Shown piece by piece: positions 1 through 10,137 of a stretch of 64,000 nucleotides of DNA (position 1 is its first letter; each line of letters opens with the position of its first letter). The position numbers were made by a program, and so were the translations under genes. Origin of the DNA: Flavobacteriales bacterium (GTDB lineage: Bacteria; Bacteroidota; Bacteroidia; Flavobacteriales_E; Vicingaceae); NCBI GenBank assembly GCA_020853105.1, contig JADYZM010000046.1, forward strand, positions 1-64,000. The letters run 5' to 3'. Under the pieces are notes generated by a model, which was not told where the DNA came from, made no database searches, and was given only the letters and a program-made list of their open reading frames with translations.

Positions 1-2513
1 AGCTTATTGTTAACCCAGTTTACAACCAAAATTTAGGTACTGTTTCTATTTGTCAAGGCGACAGTGCCCTGATTCTTGGAAACTACGAATCTGTTGCAGG
101 AACTTATTCTGATACTCTTACCAGCATTAACGGTTGCGACAGTATTGTTTCTCAAACACTTGCTATTTTGTCAAACTCAAGCGTGAACCTAGGTAACGAT
201 ACTTCAATTTGTGCAGGAAATACATTGTTACTCGATGCTGGAGCGGGTAATTCATACTTGTGGCAAGATGGTAGCACAACAACTCAAACCTATCTTGTTT
301 CAAATTCTGGTCAATACTTTGTAACTGTTAATGTAGGGGCTTGTTCAGCTTCTGACACTATTAATGTTGCTGTTATTTCTATCCCATCAACCTATTTATC
401 AACAATTTCGATATGTCAAGGCGATAGTGCACTAATTTTTGGAAATTATCAATATTCAACAGGTAATTACTCTGACACGTTAATTTCTTACACAAATTGT
501 GACAGTATAATTGTTCAGCCTTTGATAGTTAATCCAATATATAATTACAACTTAACACCAATATCTATTTGCCAAGGAGATAGTGCTTTAATATTCGGAA
601 ATTATTATACTGTTTCTGGAACTTACTACGATTCAACAACTACAATAAATGGTTGTGATAGTATTGTAGCCCAGCAATTAATCGTTAACCCGTATCATGT
701 GTTTAGTTTAGGAAACGATACTACTGTTTGCCAAAACACATCAGTTTTATTAGATGCAGGAGCAGGTGCTGATTCATATATTTGGCAAAGTACTCCACTA
801 CCTGGATACATGAACCAAACGCTATCAGTTTCAACTTCAGGAACCTATTATGTTGTGGCTACAATTGGCGTTTGTTCTACGTCAGATACAATAAATGTTA
901 ATGTAATTCCAACTGTTTACACCAACTTGAATGATGTTGAAATATGTCAAGGTGATAGTGCATTAATTTTTGGAAACTACGAATCCATCCAAGGCTCGTA
1001 TAATCAAGTACTTACAGGACAAACAGGTTGCGACAGTATTTTAGTTCAAAACTTAATTGTTCATCCAAACTATACAATACCACAATTGGCTTCAATTTGT
1101 CAAGGCGATAGTATTCTGTTGGGAGGAATTTATCAGTATTCTAATGGAATATTCTATGATACTTTACAAAGTGGTTTTGGTTGCGACAGTATTGTAGTAA
1201 CAACTCTTGCAGTTAATCCAATATATACAACAAACACAACAGCAACAATATGCTTAGGAGACAGTATTTATTTAGGCGGTTCTTATCAATATAGTGCAGG
1301 AATCTACACAGATAATTTCACTTCAATATATGGTTGCGATAGTACCGTTAACACAACTTTAAGTGTTGTTCCAACTTTTGTTACCAATCAAGCTATAGAT
1401 ATTTGTCAAGGAGACAGTATTTATTTGGGTGGTTCATACCAAACAACTGCCGGAGTATATACTGATATATTTATATCTTCACTAGGCTGCGATAGTACCG
1501 TTAACACTACTTTAGGAATAAAACCAATCGCTTCAAACACGTTGGCATCAATAACAATCTGTGATAACGATTCGGCATTAATATTTGGAAATTATCAAAC
1601 TTTACCAGGTACATATTCAGTTGTTATACCGAATGGAGCTTCTAACGGATGCGATAGTATTGTTTATCAGACATTGAATGTAAATCCAACGTATTCACAA
1701 AACACAACAGCAACAATATGCAGTGGGGATAGCATCTATTTGGGCGGAGCCTATCAATATACTTCAGGTATCTATACTGATGTTTATTCATCAAGTTTAG
1801 GTTGCGATAGCACAATTATAACTACATTAAGTGTTGTTAATAGCTTCTTAGTAAACATATCAGACACCATTTGTGCCGGCGATAGTATTTACTTATCTGG
1901 AGCATACCAAACCACTGCCGGTGTTTACACAGATAATTTTGTGTCATCAGGTGGATGTGATAGTATTGTAAATACGACACTGTTTGTAAATCCACAACCT
2001 GTTGTTACTTTAACTGCTGATCCTGAACAAATTTTGTTTGGACAATCCTCACAACTAACAGCTACTGGTGGAGGAACATATTCATGGACACCATCTACAT
2101 TCTTATCGTGCTCAACTTGTCCGAATCCAGTTGCTTCACCAGAAGAAACTACACTTTATACAGTTGAAGTTAACTTAAACGGTTGTATAGTTTCTGACAC
2201 CATAACTGTTACTATTAATTCAGAATTTAAAATTCCTGAAGGCTTCTCTCCAAATGGTGACGGAGTAAACGATGTATTTGAAATTGTTGGTATAAACCAA
2301 TTCCCTGAAAATAAAATTTTGATTGTAAACAGATGGGGCGATAAAGTATTTGAAGCATCACCTTACAAATCCGACTGGGACGGTACAAGTCAGTTTGGAT
2401 TGGTAATCGGAGAAAAATTACCTACAGGAACCTATTTTTATGTACTTGATTTAGGTAAAAAAGGACCAACAGGCTCACAAGAAATTAAAGGATATATTTA
2501 CATCAACAGATAA
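1..2513 (+). CDS. Repeat-rich T9SS cargo protein with type B C-terminal sorting domain, 5' end cut by window edge
   Basis: The reading frame is already open at base 3, so this is the C-terminal 836 residues of a longer secreted protein. It contains ten visible copies of a module of about 45 residues that opens with ICQGDS-like and closes with GCDSxxxxxL-like motifs, so each copy has two cysteines that could form a disulfide. Two longer modules (about 183-377 and 705-910) begin LGNDTxxC and contain a YxWQ-like core, resembling Ig/PKD-type domains. A third Ig-like stretch covers about 2000-2215. The last 95 residues (2223-2510) start FKIPEGFSPNGDGVNDVF and are a typical type B (gliding-motility-associated, CHU_C) sorting domain, which directs export through the type IX secretion system. 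A PorP/SprF gene follows after two bases, the usual partner of such cargo. Probably a surface adhesin; ligand unknown. Confidence 0.9.
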   Translation, partial: LIVNPVYNQNLGTVSICQGDSALILGNYESVAGTYSDTLTSINGCDSIVSQTLAILSNSSVNLGNDTSICAGNTLLLDAGAGNSYLWQDGSTTTQTYLVSNSGQYFVTVNVGACSASDTINVAVISIPSTYLSTISICQGDSALIFGNYQYSTGNYSDTLISYTNCDSIIVQPLIVNPIYNYNLTPISICQGDSALIFGNYYTVSGTYYDSTTTINGCDSIVAQQLIVNPYHVFSLGNDTTVCQNTSVLLDAGAGADSYIWQSTPLPGYMNQTLSVSTSGTYYVVATIGVCSTSDTINVNVIPTVYTNLNDVEICQGDSALIFGNYESIQGSYNQVLTGQTGCDSILVQNLIVHPNYTIPQLASICQGDSILLGGIYQYSNGIFYDTLQSGFGCDSIVVTTLAVNPIYTTNTTATICLGDSIYLGGSYQYSAGIYTDNFTSIYGCDSTVNTTLSVVPTFVTNQAIDICQGDSIYLGGSYQTTAGVYTDIFISSLGCDSTVNTTLGIKPIASNTLASITICDNDSALIFGNYQTLPGTYSVVIPNGASNGCDSIVYQTLNVNPTYSQNTTATICSGDSIYLGGAYQYTSGIYTDVYSSSLGCDSTIITTLSVVNSFLVNISDTICAGDSIYLSGAYQTTAGVYTDNFVSSGGCDSIVNTTLFVNPQPVVTLTADPEQILFGQSSQLTATGGGTYSWTPSTFLSCSTCPNPVASPEETTLYTVEVNLNGCIVSDTITVTINSEFKIPEGFSPNGDGVNDVFEIVGINQFPENKILIVNRWGDKVFEASPYKSDWDGTSQFGLVIGEKLPTGTYFYVLDLGKKGPTGSQEIKGYIYINR
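45..1990 (+). repeat. Ten in-frame protein-coding repeats of about 135 bp
   Basis: Direct repeats within the adhesin gene. Each unit encodes xxICQGDSxxxxGxYxxxxGxYxDxxxxxxGCDSxxxxxLxVxP. Units begin near bases 45, 402, 558, 930, 1086, 1236, 1389, 1542, 1695 and 1854. Two subfamilies are visible: one with DSALIFGNY and one with DSIYLGGxY. The first dominates the N-terminal side and the second the C-terminal side, with one DSALIFGNY copy (near 1542) among the latter. This pattern suggests local duplication of units. Confidence 0.85.
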
Positions 2514-2515
2514 CT

Positions 2516-3451
2516 ATGAGACATATACTTTCCTTCATATTAATTATTTCTTGTATAAGCACTAGTTTTGCACAACAAGACCCGACGTTTACACATTATA
2601 TGTTCAACAAGTCATCAATAAATCCTGGTTATTCCGGTACTATTGACGCAATTAGCATCACAGCAATAAATAGAGCACAATGGGTTTCGTTTAAAGGAGC
2701 TCCAACTACTCAAAATATAACTGCTCACATGCCAATTTCGAACAAAAACATTGGAATTGGCTTATCTGTAACCAATGAAAAAATAGGACCTACACAAAAC
2801 TTTGGAGTGTCGGGTGATTTTGCTTACAGAATAAAAGTCAACGACAAGGGAGATAAACTATCATTGGGGCTAAAAGCCAATTTAAATTATATGACAAACT
2901 ACTTAACAGAACTTTATATTATTGATAAAAGTGATGCTTCGTTCTCTCAAAACATTAGCACCAATGCTATTCCTAACTTTGGTTTTGGAGCTTATTATTA
3001 CACAAAAAAGTATTTTGCCGGTTTGTCAATTCCAAAACTTCTCCAAAATAGTTTTGACGCAAGTAGTCCGGCAGGAAATTCAATCGCTATTTTAACAGAG
3101 CAACGCCATTACTTTTTAATTGGAGGAACAATAATCAATCTTACTCCAGATAAAGTATTCAAATTAAAACCAACTTCGTTTGTTAAAATTACGAGTGGTG
3201 CTCCAATTCAAATGGACATAAGCTCTTCTGTTATTTATAAAGACAAACTCTCTGCAGGGCTATCTTGGAGAACAGGAGATGCATTGGGATTCCTAGTGGG
3301 TATTAACTTTACAGATTTCTTACAATTTGGTTATTCATTCGACTTTTCCTACACAAATACTACTTTCAAATACAATACAGGCAGCCACGAAATTATGTTG
3401 AGGTATGATATTGTAAAAAATAAAGAAAAATCAATGCCCAAGTATTTTTAG
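2516..3451 (+). CDS. PorP/SprF family type IX secretion system membrane protein
   Basis: 311 residues with a signal peptide (cleavage likely after SFAQ, near residue 19) followed by the family's opening QDPTFTHYMFNKSSINPGYSG, then a beta-rich sequence expected to form an outer-membrane barrel. PorP/SprF proteins help export and anchor T9SS cargo that carries a type B sorting domain; in Flavobacterium johnsoniae SprF does this for SprB. Here the gene starts two bases after the stop of such a cargo gene, so the two are almost certainly cotranscribed and function together. Length is normal for the family (about 300-330). I do not give a gene symbol because these genomes have several paralogues. 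Confidence 0.9.
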   Translation: MRHILSFILIISCISTSFAQQDPTFTHYMFNKSSINPGYSGTIDAISITAINRAQWVSFKGAPTTQNITAHMPISNKNIGIGLSVTNEKIGPTQNFGVSGDFAYRIKVNDKGDKLSLGLKANLNYMTNYLTELYIIDKSDASFSQNISTNAIPNFGFGAYYYTKKYFAGLSIPKLLQNSFDASSPAGNSIAILTEQRHYFLIGGTIINLTPDKVFKLKPTSFVKITSGAPIQMDISSSVIYKDKLSAGLSWRTGDALGFLVGINFTDFLQFGYSFDFSYTNTTFKYNTGSHEIMLRYDIVKNKEKSMPKYF

Positions 3452-4569: not shown

Positions 4570-4587
4570 ATACGGCAAATGACGTAT
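4570..4587. promoter_or_regulatory. Near-perfect palindrome, candidate operator (copy 1)
   Basis: ATACGGCA-AA-TGACGTAT, an 18-base inverted repeat with 8-base arms and one mismatch. It is a twin of the perfect site at 8023-8040. Its last base is the first base of the -33 TTG of the promoter at 4587-4617. A protein bound here would sit centred about 42-45 bases before transcription start, a typical activator position. The regulator is not identified. Confidence 0.5.
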
Positions 4588-4617
4588 TGATTAATCAAAG
4601 TAAAGTAGTTATTTTTG
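4587..4617 (+). promoter_or_regulatory. Bacteroidota-type promoter for the secreted protein gene at 4647
   Basis: TTG at 4587-4589, a 20-base spacer and TATTTTTG at 4610-4617. This matches the Bacteroidota consensus TTG-N19/20-TAnnTTTG. The expected start of transcription is about 4623, leaving a short leader before the ATG at 4647. Confidence 0.55.
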
Positions 4618-4646: not shown

Positions 4647-6419
4647 ATGAATAAAAAAATTACAACAGGTTTGTTGTGTTTAAGTTTGACTTTAGGAGCT
4701 TCTGCTCAAATAAGTCAAGAAAAAACAGTAGAACTAACCGGAAAATCAAAAAATAAAGGATATTTAGGAAATGTTGTGGTTGACGACGTTAAACAACAGT
4801 TCGATATGGTTTTTGTTACAAAAGACAAAGCCAAAAAAGTAGAATACGAAGTGTATCAATTCGACTACGATTTTAACTTGATAAACAATTTTAAAGAATC
4901 AGAGCGTAAATTAAAATCAAAACGCGACAAAACTAAAATATACAAAGGCGATTATTGGGAAGTTACTGGTGTTACTGCTTCTCCAAACATGATGGGGAAA
5001 TTGGTTTTGACAAAAACTCAATATGTATATGAGTGGAACTGGTGGAATGGTGGATATGAAATCACTAAAAATGTATTAGATAAAGAAAAACCAAAAGAAA
5101 TCAGTGGAGATGGAGACGGAAAAGACCGTAAACTTTTTTATACATCACATAAAGACCTAACAGAAAAAGGTGAACTATTGGTATTAGCCTTAGTCAATAA
5201 AGGGATAATGAATATGTATAAAGAAGGAAGCAGAGAATACTTGTTGATGCATATTGATAAAGATTTGAATATCATTAAAAAAACACCGGTAAAGTTTGAC
5301 CACCCTCAAGCACTTTTATATTCAAAAGAAGTTGAAGAAACAGGAGATTGGATTATGGTGTTCGCTTCTTATGGCGGACAGGGAATGGGAAAAATTCAAG
5401 ATCCGGACCCAACTAAGTTGACCTACATGAGAATTGATGAAGCGGGAAATGTTGTCGAACGGTTTAATTTCAATACAAAATGTAACGAATGGGCTATTTC
5501 GGATATCTATACTATTGGTAATGAAGTTTTCATTTATGGTGCAGGAAATATCAACAAACCCGAAAAAAATTACACCAAATTCCCATTCTGTATCTCTATG
5601 GACGCTATGGCTTCTCCAGCAGATGCCGCAGGTAGAGAAGCGCAGATTGAAGCGTTGAAATTTGGCTATTTACAAGTTGCCAAAATCAGTAACGGTAAAG
5701 CAGATTTTGTTTCTGCAGTTTCGATTGCTGATATAAATGCAAAAGGAATTAAACCTGCTTCTCAGAAAAAACTACGCGAATTTGATGGAAAAAAATTCAT
5801 ACTAAACGGTGTTAATTTAACTTCAAACGGTGATCTTTTTATTTCCGGTCAAGATTTTAAAATGGTTCCCAATGGAAAATATAGTGTAAGATCATACCAA
5901 GACTTAATGATGTTTCAATTTGATAAAACAGGTACTTTCAAACGTTATTATGGTGTTGAAAATACAGCAAAATCATCTGGAATATTTGGTGGTGGTGGTG
6001 GAAAATCATATCCTTCTGAATTTGCCTTATACGAATCTCCAGATGGAAAAAATTTATTCTGGAATGTATTTTTAGTTGGTGATGTTGATGTTGATTGTTC
6101 TTCAGAATCTTCAACAAATTATTTAGCCGGAACGAAAACCACGACAACAACTTGTGTATATACCCCATTATATCAAGGAAGAATTGGTAAAATAGAATTG
6201 GCATCAGGAACAATTTCCGACTTTACCACTTTTGGAGGAAAAGAATACTATTTGTATGTTGATTTAGAAGACAACGGAAAAGGAAAAGATAGCCCTTACT
6301 TCAGTATCAACGGAGGAAAACAGTTGGTTTACGTTGCACGTCAGCGCAAAGGAGGAATAAAAGGTAATGAGCGTTGGGGAAATAGCCTTTGGTTTGGAAA
6401 ATTTGACCCTACAAAATAA
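4647..6419 (+). CDS. Large secreted protein of unknown family
   Basis: 590 residues from the ATG at 4647; an in-frame codon at 4626 would add seven residues but is less likely because MNKKITTGLLCLSLTLGASAQ is a compact signal peptide. After cleavage comes a long soluble region rich in beta-strand-like, charged sequence with a glycine run (FGGGGGK) in its second half. There is no T9SS sorting domain, lipobox or membrane segment, so the product is likely periplasmic. I do not recognise the family. The gene has its own promoter with an adjoining palindrome and is followed by a strong terminator, so it looks monocistronic. Confidence 0.7.
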   Translation: MNKKITTGLLCLSLTLGASAQISQEKTVELTGKSKNKGYLGNVVVDDVKQQFDMVFVTKDKAKKVEYEVYQFDYDFNLINNFKESERKLKSKRDKTKIYKGDYWEVTGVTASPNMMGKLVLTKTQYVYEWNWWNGGYEITKNVLDKEKPKEISGDGDGKDRKLFYTSHKDLTEKGELLVLALVNKGIMNMYKEGSREYLLMHIDKDLNIIKKTPVKFDHPQALLYSKEVEETGDWIMVFASYGGQGMGKIQDPDPTKLTYMRIDEAGNVVERFNFNTKCNEWAISDIYTIGNEVFIYGAGNINKPEKNYTKFPFCISMDAMASPADAAGREAQIEALKFGYLQVAKISNGKADFVSAVSIADINAKGIKPASQKKLREFDGKKFILNGVNLTSNGDLFISGQDFKMVPNGKYSVRSYQDLMMFQFDKTGTFKRYYGVENTAKSSGIFGGGGGKSYPSEFALYESPDGKNLFWNVFLVGDVDVDCSSESSTNYLAGTKTTTTTCVYTPLYQGRIGKIELASGTISDFTTFGGKEYYLYVDLEDNGKGKDSPYFSINGGKQLVYVARQRKGGIKGNERWGNSLWFGKFDPTK

Positions 6420-6484: not shown

Positions 6485-8020
6485 ATGAAAAAAGTTGTTT
6501 ATACTCTTATCGTATTCATTAGCACTTATTGTGCTGCCCAAGAACCTATAGTTTTTGATTCCAATCCGGAAAACTTGGGACCACTCGTTAATTCAGTATT
6601 TGATGAACTCTCTCCAAGAATTTCACCCGATGGTAAAACTTTATTTATCACTCGTTATCCCGACGATAATAATGGGGCAAATAATATCTGGTATTCCACA
6701 AAACAAGAAAATGGTGAATGGTCATTGTCAAAAAATATTGGTGCCCCACTTAATGTGGTCGGGTCATCAACTTCAGTTCAATCTATTTCACCCGATGGAA
6801 ACACAGTATTACTATCAAACCTATATCGTTATTTTGATGGTAGTATAACCGGGGGAGGATGTTCCATTGGTGCAAGAGCAAGAGGTGGGTGGAACTTCCC
6901 AAAACAACAATTCATTGATAAATATGAAAATCTTAGTAATTATGTAAGCTATTACCTTTCTAACAGTAGTCAATTCCTTCTAATGGCAATAGAAATGAAA
7001 AAAGGATTTGGAAAAAAAGATATTTACGTTTCATTTCGAAACCCAAAAGATCCAAACAGTTGGATAAAACCATTAAACTTAGGAGCATCTATAAATACCA
7101 ATGGCGATGAGTTTGCTCCATTTCTTGCCGCCGATGATAAAACACTTTATTTTGTTTCAGAAGGTATTCCGAATGGATTTGGTGGTGCAGATATTTGGAT
7201 GAGCAAACGCTTAGATGAAACTTGGACAAAATGGAGTACTCCTGTTAACTTGGGAAATAAAATAAACACACCCGGGTTTGATGCCTATTTCAGTATAGAT
7301 GCTGCCGGAGAGTATGCTTATTTCTCAACAGATAAAAACTCCTACGGGAAAAGTGATATAAACAGAATTAAAATGCCTCAAGCTGCTAAGCCTGATCCTG
7401 TAGTTTTAATCTATGGGAAAGTTTTTAACCAAAAAACAAACCAACCCATAAAAGCAAACATCAGCTATGAATTATTACCGGAAGGTAAAGAAGTAGGAAC
7501 AGCTTCTACAAGCCCGGAAGACATGATTTATAAAATTGTTTTGCCTTTCGGAAAAAATTATGGCTTTATGGCATCTGCAGACAACTTTTATTCTGTTACA
7601 CAGAGTTTAGACTTGAGTAAATTAGACGCTTATCAAGAAATGGAAGTAAATTTGTTTTTAGCACCTATTCAAAAAGATGAAACCATTAGGCTAAATAATA
7701 TTTTCTTTGAATTTGGAAAAAGCGATTTAAAGCAAGAATCATTTCCAGAGTTAGCCCGATTAGCAAAACTACTATCAGACAACCCCACAATAACCATAGA
7801 AATTAACGGACATACAGACGACGTAGGAAACGATACCGACAATTTAATACTTTCACAAAAAAGAGCTTCGGCAGTTGTAGATTACCTAGTATCATTAAAA
7901 ATTTCTAAAAATAGACTCTCCTCAAATGGATTTGGTGAAGCAAAACCAATTATCAGCAACTTAACTGATGAAGGCAGAGAGCTAAACAGAAGAGTGGAAT
8001 TTGTGGTGAAAACAAAATAA
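6485..8020 (+). CDS. OmpA family protein with PD40 (WD40-like) repeats
   Basis: 511 residues. A signal peptide (MKKVVYTLIVFISTYCAAQ) is followed by PD40-type beta-propeller blades with motifs such as SPRISPDGKTLFIT, VQSISPDGNTVLLS, FAPFLAADDKTLYFVS and DAYFSIDAAGEYAYFS (about residues 40-300). A carboxypeptidase-regulatory-like segment then covers about 305-395, and a C-terminal OmpA domain about 400-511 contains NGHTDDVGN and SQKRASAVVDYL. The OmpA domain binds peptidoglycan, so the protein probably bridges outer membrane or surface structures and the cell wall. The architecture is common in Bacteroidota and resembles T9SS-associated PorE-like proteins, but a specific role cannot be assigned. 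Confidence 0.88.
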   Translation: MKKVVYTLIVFISTYCAAQEPIVFDSNPENLGPLVNSVFDELSPRISPDGKTLFITRYPDDNNGANNIWYSTKQENGEWSLSKNIGAPLNVVGSSTSVQSISPDGNTVLLSNLYRYFDGSITGGGCSIGARARGGWNFPKQQFIDKYENLSNYVSYYLSNSSQFLLMAIEMKKGFGKKDIYVSFRNPKDPNSWIKPLNLGASINTNGDEFAPFLAADDKTLYFVSEGIPNGFGGADIWMSKRLDETWTKWSTPVNLGNKINTPGFDAYFSIDAAGEYAYFSTDKNSYGKSDINRIKMPQAAKPDPVVLIYGKVFNQKTNQPIKANISYELLPEGKEVGTASTSPEDMIYKIVLPFGKNYGFMASADNFYSVTQSLDLSKLDAYQEMEVNLFLAPIQKDETIRLNNIFFEFGKSDLKQESFPELARLAKLLSDNPTITIEINGHTDDVGNDTDNLILSQKRASAVVDYLVSLKISKNRLSSNGFGEAKPIISNLTDEGRELNRRVEFVVKTK

Positions 8021-8022
8021 TT

Positions 8023-8040
8023 ATACGTCATTTGACGTAT
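8023..8040. promoter_or_regulatory. Perfect palindrome, candidate operator (copy 2)
   Basis: ATACGTCA-TT-TGACGTAT: 8-base arms, perfectly symmetric, starting two bases after the OmpA-family stop codon. It ends exactly where the -33 TTTG box (8040-8043) begins. The same arrangement occurs at 4570-4587. Sequence and placement suggest a dimeric DNA-binding activator. Confidence 0.6.
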
Positions 8041-8070
8041 TTGAAAAAAAAATTAAACCGCTTACTTTTG
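8040..8070 (+). promoter_or_regulatory. Bacteroidota-type promoter for the lipoprotein gene at 8092
   Basis: TTG at 8041-8043 (TTTG from 8040), a 19-base spacer and TACTTTTG at 8063-8070, a full match to the Bacteroidota consensus. The ATG at 8092 lies 22 bases beyond the -7 box. Confidence 0.65.
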
Positions 8071-8091: not shown

Positions 8092-8583
8092 ATGAAAAAG
8101 AATTTTAATAAAGCATTATTGGTTTTAGTTATTGGAATGGGTATTATTTCTTGTTCAAAGGAAGAAAGCACACCCGCACCAACTGCAGCAACACCCACAC
8201 CAACGACACCTCCAGCCTTAGATCCATGTAATGGTGATGACGGATTTTGTATGGATTATGGTACTGTTACAAAGAGTGGTCCTGGAAAATTGTTTGTAAT
8301 AAACGGAAACAGAACCAGAGTATATTGGGAAAAAGGAGCTTCATCTACCTATGAACAAGTAGAACTTGATATCTATTCATTAACTCCAGGAACTTATAGC
8401 ATAAATGGAACAGATGCTGATTTAGAATATTATTCAGCTTCCGGAGGTGCAGTGTCTGTAGCTTATGGCTCTGTTACTGTATCTGTACTTGACACAATTA
8501 ATGGGGTAACAGGAACATTTACTGCAACAATGTTGGATAGTACCAAAATCAATTCCGGAGTATTTAAAAATATTAAGAAGTAA
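8092..8583 (+). CDS. Small outer-surface or periplasmic lipoprotein of unknown function
   Basis: 163 residues from ATG 8092. The frame is open to 8032, but the upstream part is basic and overlaps the promoter, so it is not coding. MKKNFNKALLVLVIGMG-IISC ends in a lipobox with the lipidated Cys followed by SKEE. A Pro/Thr/Ala-rich linker (about residues 28-45) leads to a beta-rich domain of about 115 residues with many Tyr/Gly/Ser and a C-x(6)-C pair near its start. I do not recognise the domain. The gene has its own promoter with an adjoining palindrome and a terminator after it, so it is a monocistronic, probably regulated unit. Confidence 0.75.
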   Translation: MKKNFNKALLVLVIGMGIISCSKEESTPAPTAATPTPTTPPALDPCNGDDGFCMDYGTVTKSGPGKLFVINGNRTRVYWEKGASSTYEQVELDIYSLTPGTYSINGTDADLEYYSASGGAVSVAYGSVTVSVLDTINGVTGTFTATMLDSTKINSGVFKNIKK

Positions 8584-9788: not shown

Positions 9789-10137
9789 AACATTATGTTT
9801 TTCAGGAGTTTTATCTCCTTGTTTTGTAAAATATTTAAACTTGATTTTGCTTCTAAAAGCGAACGACTATCTATTTATGAATACCCGTAGGGTAATTCCA
9901 GCAAATAGGCATGACCATATTCTTCATCCTCCATCTGGAGAAATGAATTGATGTTGAGAATATTTTATCTTGACTTGTTGTCATAAATGCGGTGCAAAGC
10001 TAACATAATTTTGAAATATTTAAAATAATCAAATAAAATTTTTTAATTCCCTTACAAAATAATTTAGCAAGATAGTTTACAAAAGGTTGCAAATTGTTTC
10101 TGCTAGTTAATTTTAATACTTTTGCAAGAAAATTAAA
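9789..10137. other. 349-base intergenic region between divergent genes
   Basis: Holds the purD promoter (10094-10124) on the plus strand. On the minus strand it has a TAGCTTTG -7-like box (9995-10002) for the PAS-SpoIIE gene, which would give that transcript a leader of about 200 bases. Within that leader are a 19-codon reading frame (9875-9934) and small inverted repeats (TACCC-GTA-GGGTA at 9882-9894; CTCCA-TC-TGGAG at 9929-9940). No other gene is visible. Confidence 0.5.
10094..10124 (+). promoter_or_regulatory. Promoter of purD
   Basis: TTG at 10094-10096, a 20-base spacer and TACTTTTG at 10117-10124, a full match to the Bacteroidota consensus. The purD ATG is at 10138, so the leader would be under about ten bases. 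Confidence 0.65.

Follow-up and report, generated by a model that had tools for sequence, protein, structure and literature searches.

Genes and palindromes at the locus

The window, by which we mean the whole stretch of 64,000 nucleotides analysed here, comprises positions 1-64000 of contig C46 in genome G000 (2.87 Mb in 88 contigs). It opens with a group of surface-protein genes and two palindromes, all read on the plus strand:

1..3451, plus strand: a repetitive adhesin gene, of which the 3' part is present as a frame already open where the window begins, together with a PorP/SprF gene, in the same surface-protein locus
4570..4587, plus strand: candidate operator 1, inverted repeat ATACGGCA-AA-TGACGTAT, core TACGGCA-2-TGACGTA, kept before orthologues
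4587..4589, plus strand: TTG at the -33 position
4610..4617, plus strand: -7 box TATTTTTG, 22 nt 3' of operator 1
4647..6419, plus strand: gene of a 590-residue secreted protein, ATG at 4647, with a beta-rich, propeller-like predicted fold
6485..8020, plus strand: PD40/OmpA-family outer-membrane protein gene, between both operators and lacking one of its own
8023..8040, plus strand: candidate operator 2, perfect inverted repeat ATACGTCA-TT-TGACGTAT, 2 nt past the OmpA-gene stop codon, a position kept in L116
8063..8070, plus strand: -7 box TACTTTTG, 22 nt 3' of operator 2
8092..8583, plus strand: gene of a 163-residue lipoprotein, ATG at 8092, with a sub-threshold match to DUF6252 and a 57% identical protein in L116

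Both palindromes are present exactly as the initial annotation had described them, and so are the -7 element at 4610-4617 and the -33 TTG, which shares a single base (4587) with the first palindrome. Operator 2 is followed by TTTG at 8040-8043. When up to three mismatches were allowed, the two palindromes were the only matches in the window (4 matches, each site being counted on both strands), while 0.57 matches are expected by chance and 4 were reached in 3 of 100 shuffles. The palindrome is real and far beyond chance.

The gene behind operator 1 had been assigned to a secreted protein of unrecognised family. This description holds, with a 590-codon frame from 4647, a signal peptide recognised by reading and no Pfam family; the NCBIfam search returned only a match far below the cut-off. 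The predicted model (pLDDT 76, pTM 0.78) loosely resembles beta-propellers in Foldseek (TM about 0.25), and the best VIA match (Z 10.4, rmsd 7.5 over 282 residues) is tied among many unrelated propellers. Because this resemblance is loose, we do not assign the protein to a family.

Genome-wide set of sites

Using the strict degenerate site TANGNNANATGNCGTAT without mismatch, we found exactly seven places in the genome; the 8023 site fits this form in its reverse reading. The genes behind them are as follows:

C46, two sites: the 590-residue protein and the 8092 lipoprotein
C10 and C61: two further lipoproteins
C16: a T9SS-tail protein, just past a TPR-kinase operon
C39 (C39:105518): a secreted protein, FGE-like by reading, beside a long adhesin
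C56: a response regulator (RR)

Six of the seven sites precede secreted or lipoprotein genes and the seventh precedes the RR gene. Read towards its gene, every site is followed 21-23 nt downstream by a -7-like box (5 or 6 of 6 bases) of the Bacteroidetes type, TAnnTTTG-like, and 46-81 nt downstream by an ATG start codon. No place beyond these seven, among 30 loci read, combines a box at 21-23 nt with a start codon within 100 nt. A search for the site together with the -7 box, with gaps of 15-29 allowed, gave 5 matches genome-wide, all spanning 46-48 bases, and none for the reversed pattern. The sites, their promoter spacing and the genome-wide gene set are in this respect established by sequence.

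The palindrome itself with up to three mismatches occurs genome-wide at 13 places per strand against 12 for the control, and the degenerate form with up to two mismatches at 194 against 312, in neither case an excess. Since such relaxed searches fail to separate signal from chance, only the strict form with its box is informative, and our regulon ends at seven sites, weaker members being unclaimable. The two palindromes in the window had been proposed to define a two-member envelope regulon. The idea of shared regulation was of the right kind, but the number of members was too small.

Conservation before the 590-residue and lipoprotein genes

Conservation of the half-sites before orthologous genes had been named as a check on this idea, and in relatives from Vicingaceae and Flavobacteriales it turned out in its favour for both genes. 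Ten distinct orthologues of the 590-residue protein with at least 67% identity were compared (G000, G001, G002, G018, G031, G032, G035, L112, L114 and L116), leaving out six further named loci that are the same sequences as loci listed under genome handles. The canonical palindrome is found in nine of the ten, in eight of them directly before the 590-residue gene; the ninth, L114, has a stand-alone HTH gene behind the palindrome and the 590-residue gene immediately after that. The G018 promoter carries a diverged palindrome, ATACGCAA-CA-CTGCGTAT (TACG-N8-CGTA), at the same 22-nt spacing, with the recognition-helix core of the G018 RR unchanged. In more distant homologues (L118, 55%; G043, 40%; G038 and the G000 paralogue, about 25%) no palindrome was found.

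For the lipoprotein gene, the site is kept in one genome: L116 has the 590-residue gene, the OmpA gene, the site, the lipoprotein gene (product 57% identical) and purD in this succession. The window follows this order save for one minus-strand gene between the lipoprotein gene and purD. Four further lipoprotein relatives were found, of which those in G001 and G036 have only about 20 nt of upstream DNA before the contig ends. Those in G021 and G007, which are without a close RR orthologue, are preceded by the imperfect dyads ATACGTTG-TT-TCCCTTAT and ATACGTTA-TT-TACCCTAT (reverse-complemented loci L152:1331 and L153:1426), each with a -7-like box 22-23 nt downstream. Either these dyads predate the C56-type RR or they belong to another regulator; they may represent an earlier or a different version of the same control.

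A scoring matrix trained only on the RR-promoter sites of genomes other than G000 gave the two window promoters scores of 25.6 and 25.0, neither of which was reached by any of 400 shuffles. The OmpA, PorP, purD and groEL promoters of the window score 4.1 or less, and the 590-residue promoters of G018 and L118 score poorly as well (7.5 and 2.3).

Two further observations concern this group of genes. On L118, a contig labelled Chlorobiota, a similar site TTAAGGCAAATGCCCTAT at 623-640, with TAAAATTG 22 nt downstream, precedes the gene of a 540-residue secreted protein. In L115 and L116 the leader of the 590-residue gene (9900-9991 in both) folds into a strong hairpin, with -20.3 kcal/mol (z -2.4) in the former and -27.1 kcal/mol (z -4.1) in the latter. 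Pseudoknot-like pairing of its loop, GGTTTGGT, with ACCAAACC just before the ATG would be possible; the hairpin has no Rfam match and was not seen before the 590-residue gene of the window.

The response regulator on C56 and its own promoter

The response regulator gene among the seven lies on C56 next to a kinase gene:

G000:C56:1207-1857, minus strand: NarL/FixJ-family RR gene, directly downstream of the kinase gene
C56:1904-3730: TPR/HisKA_3 histidine kinase gene, adjoining the RR gene

The RR consists of a Response_reg domain (Pfam, 1.5e-21) followed by GerE (3.3e-17), which places it in the NarL/FixJ (LuxR-type) family; among solved structures VraR is its best match, and NarL is also among its best relatives. 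The kinase carries TPR_12, HisKA_3 and HATPase_c, and HisKA_3 is the partner type of NarL/FixJ RRs. A signal peptide and one later membrane segment were recognised by eye, which would place the TPR part in the periplasm.

Orthologues of the RR with 71-87% identity are present in nine others among the 60 genomes searched (own included), and G034 adds a partial orthologue at the edge of a contig; three more were found in G064-G066 among 46 genomes of the family. All 15 RR genes with at least 70% identity, a set that includes G000 itself, L112 and G064-G066, are preceded by the downstream half-site, ATGnCGTA, and a box at the same spacing. The left half-site is weak in most of these promoters, with TAAG or TAGG in place of TACG. 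The site follows the kinase stop codon in the g4 genomes and lies within the coding end of the kinase gene in G000, G001 and L112, where coding constraint therefore contributes to its conservation. Diverged RRs (G018, 50% identity; G028, 48%) have no canonical site at their RR gene.

Co-occurrence of sites and candidate regulator

The half-site with its box was searched in 60 genomes against a reversed-pattern control, and all 38 hits were read individually. Every one of the 11 genomes with a close RR orthologue has a match, 27 hits in total against 6 for the control; the 49 genomes without a close orthologue gave 11 hits (in nine genomes) against 17. The two groups of hits also differ in quality. 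A second half-site is present in 25 of the 27 hits in RR-bearing genomes, 24 of which list a frame starting 40-62 nt downstream, and the twenty-fifth (G001, L033) leads to a stand-alone HTH gene; the other two look like chance. Among the 11 hits in genomes without a close RR orthologue none has a second half-site or a frame start within 62 nt, and apart from one with a frame 231 nt downstream they list no frame at all. The sites in this way co-occur with the RR gene.

A second pair of the same type deserves consideration as the regulator, namely the TPR kinase and NarL-type RR on C16 (L020:2815-5166). In G000 its operon stands immediately upstream of a site and the T9SS gene, and G001 has a similar kinase with TPR repeats ahead of a site. 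However, orthologues of the C16 RR occur in just two of the 60 genomes (G000 and G001), while sites are found in nine further genomes, and its recognition helix RTVETHKTAIMQKF differs from those of the C56 RR and the stand-alone HTH proteins. We consider this assignment very improbable, and the narrow distribution of the orthologues led us to reject the C16 RR as a general regulator.

Gene linkage and stand-alone HTH genes

In several genomes the RR gene, the sites and the 590-residue gene are linked. The cluster in L112 reads kinase, site, RR, site and 590-residue gene; in L114 the order is RR, site, HTH, 590-residue gene and OmpA, and in L115 it is RR, site, T9SS-like gene, site, 590-residue gene and OmpA. 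L112 and L114 have the RR and 590-residue genes side by side, L115/G031 has one gene between them, and in G018 the two are divergent. At G000:C6:25106-28321 (L105) a paralogue with 26% identity to the 590-residue protein is found close to a further NarL-type RR gene, and a similar pair occurs in G038.

Stand-alone GerE HTH genes stand behind a site in L111, L114 and L117 (G001/L117), the GerE score in L117 being 3.7e-18. Their products have the segment TVRKHxENIYxKLxVHNK in common with the C56 RR; it does not occur in the C16 RR. The same locus L117 also contains an above-threshold match to the SAM-II riboswitch aptamer at 2331-2415.

L111 has four sites, which lie before the genes of the HTH protein, of a secreted protein, of the FGE-like protein and of the 590-residue protein; a 1723-residue adhesin and PorP are encoded between the FGE-like and the 590-residue gene. 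Window positions 1-168 and the right end of L021 (G000:C39) both end their contigs in near-identical adhesin repeats, with no exact overlap between C39 and C46. Based on the shared repeats and the synteny in L111, we propose that the two contigs are neighbours, which suggests that the assembly broke a single adhesin gene in two and that this is where C39 and C46 join. The C39-site gene is probably a neighbour of the adhesin of the window. Near this site, L021:1-6138 holds two NarK-like transporter genes, a MoeA-like gene and two Crp/Fnr-type genes (by reading).

The latter genes, about 5 kb or less from the C39 site, raise the question whether a regulator of another family binds the palindromes, the RR gene being merely a target. 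The length of the palindrome is compatible with several regulator families. Crp/Fnr half-sites, in contrast, are of the TTGAT and TGTGA types and do not fit the sites. A regulator of another family would also leave the stand-alone GerE genes behind sites and the RR co-occurrence unexplained, and the 7-2-7 layout is that of NarL (PMC4549865). We therefore judge binding by another family to be improbable.

Geometry of the candidate operators and proposed mechanism

To describe the operator we aligned 41 sites, which were picked because they match and so provide no independent test of the pattern. Within this picked set TA at positions 2-3, A8, T11, G12, C14 and TA at 16-17 are invariant, and in all 41 positions 2-3 are complementary to 16-17 and position 8 to 11, giving the NarL-type 7-2-7 layout of two inverted heptamers with a 2-bp spacer. 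The distance from operator to box in these picked sites is 22 nt in 36, 21 nt in three and 23 nt in two. TTG at the -33 place is present in 12 of 24 envelope-gene sites and 3 of 3 HTH-gene sites, and in none of 14 RR-gene sites.

Inverted repeats may also act as RNA hairpins or terminators, or represent copies of a small dispersed repeat. The palindrome at 8023-8040 comes after the OmpA-gene stop codon and folds at -7.5 kcal/mol, as such a reading would have it. Against this, T-runs are absent after the palindromes, the sites have -7 boxes at a constant distance on their downstream side, no gene end precedes 4570-4587 on its strand, and the core positions are kept while the flanks differ. We give this explanation practically no chance and have rejected the hairpin or terminator reading.

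The Bacteroidetes -7 box has been placed at -12 to -5 (PMC9723704), and when this position is adopted the centre of the operator falls at about -43.5. NarL activates napF and yeaR from sites at -40/-49 and -38/-47 (PMC4549865). From this NarL-like position and from the RR promoters without TTG we infer class-II activation and positive autoregulation. Both palindromes are very probably operators of one NarL-type RR with a small envelope/T9SS regulon, and in the reading that we prefer they serve for class-II activation by a TPR-kinase/RR system that also controls itself.

In the mechanism that we propose, a stimulus would reach the kinase through its TPR part, which is placed after the signal peptide and hence probably periplasmic. 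The phosphorylated RR would dimerise on TAnGnCA-2-TGnCGTA, centred about 43.5 bp before the transcription start, where it would overlap the -33 element and recruit RNA polymerase to the TAnnTTTG promoter. The RR may in this way activate its own expression along with at least six genes for surface proteins, namely the 590-residue protein, the 8092 lipoprotein, the FGE-like protein, the T9SS-tail protein and two further lipoproteins. The identity of the regulator, its binding, its control by phosphorylation, the direction of its effect and the signal are all deduced, while the sequence itself shows the sites, their distance to the promoter, their conservation and gene set, their co-occurrence with the RR and the linkage of the RR and 590-residue genes.

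The same RR on the same operators could instead repress, by blocking RNA polymerase across the -33 region, a place that repressors use too. The fixed spacing of the box in the picked sites (21-23 nt in all) and the use of this position by NarL at napF and yeaR (PMC4549865) speak for activation, as does the lack of TTG at the RR promoters, which fits an activator taking over the -33 contact. Repression appears rather unlikely to us.

Extending the activator model, the TPR kinase, the autoregulated RR, the propeller-like 590-residue partner and OmpA could form a self-contained Vicingaceae module. In it the stand-alone HTH proteins of some species, whose genes themselves lie behind the operator, might serve as a phosphorylation-free memory or damper on the same sites, and the 590-residue protein might stand in the signal path, as source or feedback, and not just be an output. 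That distant members of its family adjoin other NarL-type RRs (G000:C6, G038) points in this direction, although we regard the module as a whole as doubtful.

Comparison with known systems

To our knowledge, RR operators of Bacteroidetes have seldom been identified except in a few models. None of six operator motif strings had a match in the literature searched, and the titles and opening parts of abstracts listed there mention no operator of this kind for this family. Here sequence alone has yielded an operator with its promoter geometry, a regulon of seven sites and a candidate regulator, in a family that is mostly uncultured. It thereby becomes possible to test directly how TPR kinases take part in sensing and whether a NarL-type RR controls T9SS-linked surface proteins.

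The closest parallel in the operator is found in the NarL/NarP 7-2-7 sites of Escherichia coli, where heptamers that start with TAC are inverted 2 bp apart near -43 and are bound by a receiver-GerE RR (PMC4549865, PMC2718512). NarL binds such inverted heptamers with a 2-bp spacer, as in the engineered 7-2-7 site TACCCCT-AA-AGGGGTA (PMC4549865). The C56 RR is homologous to NarL and VraR. In contrast to the NarL system, the heptamer here is TAnGnCA, the sensor has TPR repeats, the promoter is of the Bacteroidetes type, and the targets are surface proteins instead of nitrate respiration.

With respect to the sensor, FimS of Porphyromonas gingivalis has been described to contain TPR repeats in its periplasmic sensor domain, and FimR activates fimbrial genes (PMC11053733, PMC1974823, PMC5706477). 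By this description FimS/FimR is similar in that a TPR kinase has a partner controlling surface-structure genes, as predicted here. Its targets, however, are fimbriae, and the passages on it in these papers give no operator sequence.

VraR, the best structural match of the C56 RR, acts in an envelope-stress response, and its targets concern the envelope, as they do here. Its sensor and targets are nevertheless different from those of the C56 system. PorXY-SigP resembles our system as a two-component control of T9SS genes in Bacteroidetes, but PorX is reported to act via the sigma factor SigP. PorX is a receiver that is not known to carry GerE or another HTH output domain, while the C56 RR carries GerE. 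Overall, the kind of system is already known, and the C56 RR with its predicted operators is a new instance of it.
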